Of a DNA stretch of 64,000 nucleotides, positions 35,624 to 37,107 are shown one piece after another. The position numbers and the translations under genes are program-made. The notes beneath the pieces were generated by a model. That model was not told the origin of the DNA. It made no database searches and saw nothing but the letters and a program-made list of their open reading frames with translations. Within the stretch, counting starts at the first letter, position 1. The number at the start of each line of letters is the position of its first letter. Source of the stretch: Lachnospiraceae bacterium (GTDB lineage Bacteria > Bacillota > Clostridia > Lachnospirales > Lachnospiraceae); NCBI GenBank assembly GCA_024690825.1, contig JAILOK010000056.1, positions 62,001 to 126,000 of the forward strand. The letters run 5' to 3'.

Positions 35624-36388
35624 TTATCTGTTTTTATCGTATATTATCTTTAAGCCTTTGAGCAGCAGATCGGGATCGAGGGTTATGTCATGTTTGCAAT
35701 GCGGGATTATGACCGCTGCAAGTCCTCCTGTTGCGACAACGGAAGCTTTTTGGCCCAGTTCCTCTTCGAACCGGTCGATCATGCCGTCTATACGGGAAGC
35801 TTCTCCGTAGATGATACCGCTTTTCATGGCGTCAATCGTATTGGCGCCTATTACTTTTTTAGGGGTGGAATATGAAATCCTTGGCAGAAGAGAAGTCTTT
35901 GAAACAAGCGATTCCAGAGAAACATTCACACCCGGAAATATGATACCGCCGATATACGAACCGTCTTTATCAAGTGCCGTCATTGTTGTCGCTGTTCCCA
36001 TGTCGATAACGATATTCGGAGCACTGTAAAGATTAAGGGCAGCGATTGAGTCAACAGCGATATCCGCGCCCAAAGATCCCGGATCATCTATTCTGATATT
36101 CAGCCCTGTCTTAAGGCCTGCGCCCACAACGAGGGGTTCATTTCCCAGAACCTTCCTGAGGGCGTTTTTTACTACATGAGTAAGAGATGGGATTACCGAA
36201 GAAATAATGCTTCCCGTCACATCTTCTGCAGCTGTTTCATGGATGTCCATCACAGCCTTTATGACCATGGCATATTCAAGTTCGGTATAGTTAAGGTTTG
36301 TAGATATCCTCTCCGTGAAGTGGATCTTCTGATCATCTATGCATCCGACAACAATATTGGTGTTGCCCATGTCGACAGCCATTATCAT
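35624..36388 (-). CDS. coaX: Type III pantothenate kinase
   Basis: The cytoplasmic enzyme phosphorylates pantothenate, the first step of coenzyme A synthesis. It has the N-terminal ASKHA motif AVDMGNTNIVVG, the PLVVGAGLKTGL segment, DPGSLGADIAVD, IDMGTATTMTALD and GGIIFPGV with the family order. The length of 254 residues is typical. TAGGAGG upstream fixes the start. It lies 13 bases downstream of the ECF S-component gene, and the two probably form a pantothenate import-and-use operon. Confidence 0.95.
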   Translation of the reverse strand: MIMAVDMGNTNIVVGCIDDQKIHFTERISTNLNYTELEYAMVIKAVMDIHETAAEDVTGSIISSVIPSLTHVVKNALRKVLGNEPLVVGAGLKTGLNIRIDDPGSLGADIAVDSIAALNLYSAPNIVIDMGTATTMTALDKDGSYIGGIIFPGVNVSLESLVSKTSLLPRISYSTPKKVIGANTIDAMKSGIIYGEASRIDGMIDRFEEELGQKASVVATGGLAAVIIPHCKHDITLDPDLLLKGLKIIYDKNR

Positions 36389-36401: not shown

Positions 36402-36989
36402 CTATGAAGTCTTCTTTACAGCGGAGATTATCCTGATTATTACCGGTGTAAGAATTATGTCGAAGGCAAGCTCGAACAGGAAATTAACGCCTATGAAGGC
36501 AACGAGCAGAAATACGACAGGATTCTGACCCGCGGCGCTTTCCACCAGAAGATTCCTGAATACGGTAAGCATTGCCAAAGCGAAGAGGCCGGTATTGGCA
36601 ATGGGCGCTATCAGAGCGGCAACCGCAACACCGACATATTTATGCTTCTGCAGAGCCTTATAAACGATGCCCGCAAAGAAACCGGCAGCAGCACCCTTGA
36701 CCAGACATGTGGCGACTGTAAATACCGGATTCTGGTTAAACATGATCAGACTGAAAGGTTCCAGACCGGAGACTACCGTGATAACAACTATGATGCCGAA
36801 TATCAGTCCCAGAAGAGCTCCTGCTCCGGGGCCGAAAAGGATCGCTCCGATGATTATGGGAATAAGAGCAAGCGTAGGTGTGAACGGACCGAAATGGATC
36901 CCGGACGCAAAAGCCTGAAGTACTATTACGATACCTACAAGTATTGCAGTGCCCACAAGTTTCTGTACTTTTGAATTTTTACTAAGCAT
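36402..36989 (-). CDS. ECF transporter S component, probably pantothenate-specific
   Basis: A 195-residue protein with about six membrane helices, matching ECF-type vitamin S components (AILVGIVIVLQAF, FGPFTPTLALIPIIIGAILFGPGAGALLG). S components bind the vitamin and dock on a shared EcfAAT module, which is not encoded here. The adjacent coaX gene makes pantothenate the best guess (PanT type). The ribosome-binding site AGGAGGA is perfect, but a leader sequence can pair with it completely, so expression is likely controlled at translation. Confidence 0.85.
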   Translation of the reverse strand: MLSKNSKVQKLVGTAILVGIVIVLQAFASGIHFGPFTPTLALIPIIIGAILFGPGAGALLGLIFGIIVVITVVSGLEPFSLIMFNQNPVFTVATCLVKGAAAGFFAGIVYKALQKHKYVGVAVAALIAPIANTGLFALAMLTVFRNLLVESAAGQNPVVFLLVAFIGVNFLFELAFDIILTPVIIRIISAVKKTS

Positions 36990-37072
36990 TTTATCCTCCT
37001 GCTGACATTCTTCGATGTCCCAAAGGAGGAGTGGCGGTCCCCCTTAGGACTAAAGATACATCGCGTTATAGT
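36990..37072 (-). promoter_or_regulatory. Candidate translational riboswitch in the ECF S-component leader
   Basis: The ~83-base leader can fold in two exclusive ways. Form A: stem CGATGT (37063-37058)/ACATCG (37018-37013) encloses an 8-bp hairpin AAGGGGGA (37045-37038)/TCCTCCTT (37030-37023, one G-U), leaving the ribosome-binding site free. Form B: TCCTCCT (37030-37024) pairs with the ribosome-binding site AGGAGGA (37000-36994), closing an inner stem GACAT/ATGTC that uses the same bases as ACATCG. This is the layout of an on/off switch. I do not recognise its aptamer as a known class; pantothenate, CoA or a precursor is a guess from the genes served. Confidence 0.6.
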
Positions 37073-37078
37073 GGTTGA

Positions 37079-37107
37079 AGTATAACATGAGAGGAAACAA
37101 AACACAA
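37079..37107 (-). promoter_or_regulatory. Promoter of the ECF S-component/coaX unit
   Basis: Minus-strand TTGTGT and TATACT are 17 bases apart with TG-T before the -10 (extended -10). It places the transcript start near 37072, just before the switch-like leader. Confidence 0.6.

Follow-up and report, generated by a model that had tools for sequence, protein, structure and literature searches.

Gene context of the panT leader

The window, that is, the whole 64,000-nt stretch of DNA analysed here, carries on its minus strand panT, which encodes the S component of an ECF transporter, probably for pantothenate, and coaX, which encodes a type III pantothenate kinase (Table 1). A PDB search with a profile of the closest panT relatives (A1) matched only 4RFS_S and 6ZG3_C, both of which are ECF-PanT (PMC7755397); therefore, panT is a sound name for the gene. 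Of 140 panT loci, 93 had coaX in the flanking sequence that was retrieved. Besides the panT-linked copy, the genome of the window has a second coaX (G000:C67:4687-5301).

Upstream of the ATG start codon of panT at 36989, a promoter with an extended −10 string (TGTTATACT, minus strand) was read from the window sequence, and the predicted promoter would place the transcription start near 37072. A consensus promoter scan did not pick up this TTGTGT/TATACT promoter. In homologous leaders, −10-like boxes were found ca. 6–20 nt upstream of the hairpin described below, and the hairpin is predicted to lie at or near the 5′ end of the panT mRNA.

Table 1 Features of the panT leader and its genes, with window positions.
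Feature	Position	Strand	Basis
Predicted promoter, TTGTGT-17 nt-TATACT with extended TG (−35, 37107-37102; TG, 37087-37086; −10 TATACT, 37084-37079)	37079..37107	−	Read from sequence
Hairpin 5′ arm: lower stem GC (37064-37063) and GAUGU (37062-37058)	37058..37064	−	R1 match, minimum fold, covariation in homologues
Bulged A, 5′ side	37057	−	Invariant in alignment A2 and pan hairpins A3
Apical stem (UCUUU 37056-37052 with GAAGA 37013-37009) and variable loop/insert (37051-37014)	37009..37056	−	Minimum fold
3′ arm of 5-bp stem, AUGUC	37004..37008	−	Minimum fold, covariation, R1 match, pair probabilities
Bulged A, 3′ side	37003	−	Invariant in A2 and A3
Lower stem GC, 3′ side, followed directly by the Shine-Dalgarno sequence	37001..37002	−	Covariation, R1 match
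Shine-Dalgarno sequence AGGAGGA	36994..37000	−	Zero gap to hairpin; read from sequence
panT, ECF transporter S component, probably pantothenate	36402..36989	−	PF12822, 2.1e-14
coaX, type III pantothenate kinase	35624..36388	−	PF03309, 5.2e-61; 13 nt downstream of panT

A covarying hairpin abuts the Shine-Dalgarno sequence

The minimum fold of the leader (−27.1 kcal/mol) pairs GCGAUGU(A)UCUUU with GAAGAAUGUC(A)GC, so that GAUGU is paired with AUGUC and a single A is bulged on each side. In the window, the apical part of the hairpin spans 48 nt, and two of the pairs in the 5-bp stem are G-U.

Leaders of panT were gathered solely through protein homology, the sources being close relatives, a GTDB species set, and the family. 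Most of them share the layout GC-N5-A-YC..loop..GR-N5′-A-GC, followed after 0–3 nt by GGAGG. N5 and N5′ co-vary (GAUGU/AUGUC, GCUGU/ACAGC, GCUGC/GCGGC, AUUGU/ACAGU, GUUGC/GCGAC, GUUUC/GAAAC, and GGUAC/GUGCC); the hairpin of locus L203, for instance, is GCGCUGUAUCCGUAAGGAACGGCAGC. For the alignment of short-loop leaders (A2), 37 leaders were selected by sequence anchors and not by pairing, with those of ambiguous anchors excluded. Two-sided changes were found at all 11 pairs, and 95.1% of cells were paired, compared with 73.2% after shuffling and 29–52% in slid registers. The covariation score was 0.738 against 0.289 in shuffled alignments, and none of 500 shuffles reached it. Among these 11 covarying pairs, both bulged As were invariant in the 37 leaders. 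At pairs 3-38 and 6-35 of A2, the non-pairing cells were nearly all A-C (AAUGU/ACGUC in one leader group and ACUAU/ACAGU in another); A-C pairs are able to mimic G-U wobble and may be tolerated or meaningful.

In a further test made without the anchor choice behind the 37-leader set, a full complementary 5′ arm was found upstream of the 3′ arm anchored on the Shine-Dalgarno sequence in 44 of 97 non-redundant leaders. Dinucleotide shuffles gave 0.4 leaders (maximum 3 in 50 runs), and differing arms taken from other loci gave 2.5%. These results support the proposal of the sequence-only reading that a cis-regulatory RNA lies in the leader of this pantothenate ECF S-component gene, since a conserved structured hairpin occupies the same interval.

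The hairpin could be parsed in 78 of 112 leaders; the remaining 34 were not parsed, and they include a few leaders whose loop is very long or whose hairpin takes a variant form. In the parsed leaders, the loop is 8–99 nt long, the loop of the window being among the long ones, and the distance from the hairpin end to the start codon is 10–17 nt with a mode of 13. The leaders of L007 and L009 retain the arms around a loop of >110 nt. Erysipelotrichaceae leaders (L074, L081, L083, L084, and L101) show a variant, GUCAU A UCCC .. GGGA AUGA A, which was missed by the descriptor.

Covariance-model searches recover panT leaders

We built a covariance model (R1) from the 37 panT leaders, with the window left out of training. 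The best R1 match in the genome of the window was the window leader itself (37064-36996; 30.6 bits), with E-values of 9.5e-7 for the window alone and 4.4e-5 for the entire genome. Weak matches (E 0.77 and 2.6), both inside unrelated sequence, were the only candidates for a second copy in this genome.

R1 was then run on related genomes, with about 0.2 chance matches expected per search at E<1e-3. In 196 genomes of the order, 21 matches were obtained at this threshold, 20 of them before ECF S-component genes: 19 lie 3–12 nt before the ORF and one (L199) ca. 150 nt before it. We have no explanation for the remaining match (L219). The 200 genomes of the family gave 30 matches, 27 of which stand directly before an ECF S-component ORF. 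Since some family genomes contributed to the training of R1, the cleaner of the two tests is the search in the order. In total, R1 gave 51 matches at E<1e-3 in 396 related genomes, of which 47 precede an ECF S-component gene and one precedes coaX. The latter, from the family search (L244; G694:C63:32320-32351), is a hairpin abutting the Shine-Dalgarno sequence directly before coaX instead of panT. In 300 genomes of the phylum, the best match (L178) fell once more in the leader of an ECF S-component gene; the weaker matches appear to be due to chance. The copy before coaX, together with the coaX linkage and the ECF-PanT relatives in the PDB, agrees with the earlier assignment of the leader to the vitamin B5/CoA pathway.

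Relation to the pan RNA

The pan RNA (RF01749) was described as a stem that carries two bulged As of high conservation; most examples come in tandem, and they precede operons for panB, panC, or aspartate decarboxylase (Weinberg et al. 2010, PMC2864571). Rfam 15 gave nothing at the window leader, either at the gathering thresholds or at E≤10, and none of its covariance models, known riboswitch classes included, covers the panT leaders. RF01749, a 92-position model of two hairpins, finds no panT leader: its gathering score of 36.2 bits was not reached by any of them, the window leader included. Its matches in 41 relatives were all sub-threshold; the one on the contig of the window (G000:C22:100399-100482, plus strand) is not in the leader, and we regarded it as a chance match. 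The sole Rfam match at gathering level in the window was a Clostridiales-1 sRNA (RF01699; 49733-49889, minus strand; 101.7 bits).

The sequence-only reading had not matched the leader to the pan motif, while allowing for a variant. The Rfam model indeed misses the leader, yet the architecture of the pan hairpin is present. We extracted 32 hairpins from RF01749 matches in other Firmicutes, at loci that precede genes whose protein sequences indicate panB, panC, or a dehydropantoate-reductase-like function, and all have the layout of the panT-leader hairpin (e.g. GG-GCAGU-A-UC..GA-ACUGC-A-CC and CG-CUUGG-A-UCC..GGA-CCGAG-A-CG). The plan common to both is a base stem, an A on the 3′ side, exactly five pairs, an A on the 5′ side, and UC/GA above. 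Because the descriptor used for the pan hairpins required pairing, their covariation counts are not independent evidence, whereas their layout is. A model trained on pan hairpins alone (R2) also recognised many homologues of the leader. In 20 panT loci (57 kb), it gave five matches, all of which were the leader hairpin; with filters off, in a further set of 18 panT loci, the leader hairpin accounted for the best nine matches and for 12 of 18 overall. R2 missed the copy of the window, also with filters off.

Both RNAs belong to the vitamin B5 pathway of Firmicutes and lie upstream of the genes that they would control. They differ in several respects. The panT leader has one hairpin, while most pan RNAs have two in tandem (PMC2864571); it ends 0–3 nt before the Shine-Dalgarno sequence, while pan RNAs lie tens of nt or more upstream; and it precedes panT or coaX instead of panB, panC, or panD. 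The lower stem is GC/GC in panT leaders and mainly GG/CC or CG/CG in pan RNAs, and the panT-leader RNA scores below the Rfam cut-off for pan.

panB was absent from the genome of the window (99.4% complete) and from 23 of the 26 genomes examined. All three panB-bearing genomes with the motif also carry pan hairpins, located at panB or upstream of it: G018 has a single hairpin (L221), G524 has one about 1 kb upstream of panB (L220), and G528 has a tandem followed by an apparent terminator (L222). Therefore, the same hairpin type occurs at uptake and synthesis genes in the same cells, which suggests that one shared regulator reads B5 uptake and B5 synthesis. In G528, the tandem pan RNA with its apparent intrinsic terminator before panB and the single form abutting the Shine-Dalgarno sequence at panT (L190) would represent two ways of control by a hairpin of one type.

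Weighing the readings of the leader

We consider the leader hairpin to be a pan-type RNA, namely a single-hairpin, transporter-linked variant of pan that abuts the Shine-Dalgarno sequence, and most likely to act as a feedback switch on the initiation of panT translation; we put the probability of the two statements jointly at about 0.7. The sequence-only reading had instead proposed a switch in which the anti-SD UCCUCCU pairs either within an internal hairpin or with the Shine-Dalgarno sequence AGGAGGA, the ligand being pantothenate or a CoA compound. Its strings (CGATGT, AAGGGGGA, TCCTCCTT, ACATCG, ATGTC, and AGGAGGA) were all located where described on the minus strand, and the two structures are sterically possible and can both form. 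Neither is preferred by the fold: constrained folding gave −21.5 kcal/mol for the form with a free ribosome-binding site and −22.8 kcal/mol for the anti-SD form, 4–6 kcal/mol worse than the pan-type fold, and the proposed stems had pair probabilities of about 0.00 and 0.001–0.007 against 0.91–0.96 for the alternative 5-bp stem. The conserved hairpin reuses the 5′ arm of the proposed structure, and the AAGGGGGA hairpin and UCCUCCU (37030-37024) fall within the insert of its apical part. Neither structure is conserved. The exact closing-stem partner, which is the reverse complement of C+N5 in the loop, is private to the window among the 78 parsed leaders. Apart from the window, L094 is the only parsed leader with an anti-SD of the CCUCC/CUCCU type in the loop, and there it lies within a short apical stem. 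Both elements are absent from L065, the closest homologue (protein 85% identical). Because homologous leaders do not keep these segments, the anti-SD/anti-anti-SD layout is a property of one sequence, and we regard such a switch as very improbable.

Convergence on a hairpin not homologous to pan, with the two bulged As as a common geometry of protein recognition, would fit the failure of the Rfam pan model at the window leader and most panT leaders as well as the different base pairs. This reading is improbable to us, since the exact five-pair spacing, the sides of the bulges, the UC/GA closing pairs, and the pathway are all the same, the model of pan hairpins alone cross-detects the leaders, and pan RNAs stand at panB in the same genomes. 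A metabolite riboswitch, in which the hairpin binds pantothenate, 4′-phosphopantetheine, or CoA directly through the two bulged As, is unlikely, if less so than convergence. The element is small, compact, and tightly tied to one pathway, it abuts the Shine-Dalgarno sequence, and its two invariant As are flanked by strong pairs. Vitamin riboswitches also control other ECF S-component genes from the leader (TPP-thiT, FMN-ribU, THF-folT, and preQ1-queT); however, the aptamers of these riboswitches are large or nucleotide-rich and their ligands are known, and no Rfam match to them was found here. Known aptamers carry more conserved unpaired nucleotides than the panT-leader hairpin, in which almost none is conserved beyond the two As and the loop is not conserved. 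The authors of the pan study, too, favoured a dimeric protein-binding element (PMC2864571).

Possible mode of control and effector

With the pan-type hairpin as a feedback switch, high pantothenate or CoA-pathway supply would let an effector recognise the two bulged As and stabilise or occupy the hairpin. The 30S subunit could then not load on the adjacent Shine-Dalgarno sequence, and less PanT, and less of the product of coaX behind it, would be made. At low supply, the hairpin would be free and PanT would be made. Action on translation, as the sequence-only reading had proposed, is probable, since the conserved hairpin ends 0–3 nt before the Shine-Dalgarno sequence; we infer both this mode and the direction of control. 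Since panB is missing, uptake is probably the source of B5 in such genomes, which makes feedback control of panT reasonable.

Sequestration of the Shine-Dalgarno sequence by a longer base stem was considered and rejected, as extension of the base stem into it was no commoner than chance (46 observed against 47.8 expected of 78 leaders). Since a longer stem hiding the Shine-Dalgarno sequence is not selected, occupancy by an effector is favoured over simple sequestration. Because so few unpaired bases are conserved, the effector is somewhat likely to be an RNA-binding protein, and a directly bound metabolite is considerably less so. The operator of the MS2 coat protein is a translational operator of this kind, a short hairpin with a bulged A that is read by a protein and overlaps or abuts the ribosome-binding site; it differs in that the loop sequence of the panT-leader hairpin is not conserved and its binding protein is putative. 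We tentatively propose, as a possibility short of an even chance, that one B5/CoA-sensing factor reads the hairpin singly at panT and coaX and in tandem at panBCD, which would constitute a pantothenate RNA regulon of gut Clostridia. Such a factor could be an RNA-binding protein, conceivably CoaX itself. coaX was present in all 26 motif genomes tested; because coaX is common, this co-presence is uninformative on CoaX as the binder.

A survey of vitamin regulons in the gut lists riboswitches for B1, B2, B9, and B12 and no regulator for B5 (PMC6593275). Our literature search, which extended to few of the subscription journals, returned the 2010 paper and passing mentions only, with no link between a pan-type RNA and panT. 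Since its description in 2010, pan has stayed an orphan RNA, previously known at biosynthesis genes only, and the present assignment would extend pan-type control to vitamin B5 uptake and coaX. For gut Clostridia, which are mostly unable to make B5, the hairpin could serve as a regulatory signal for PanT annotation. The minimal single-hairpin form (ca. 30 nt) next to the Shine-Dalgarno sequence of a transporter gene would be a much simpler reporter in the search for the effector.
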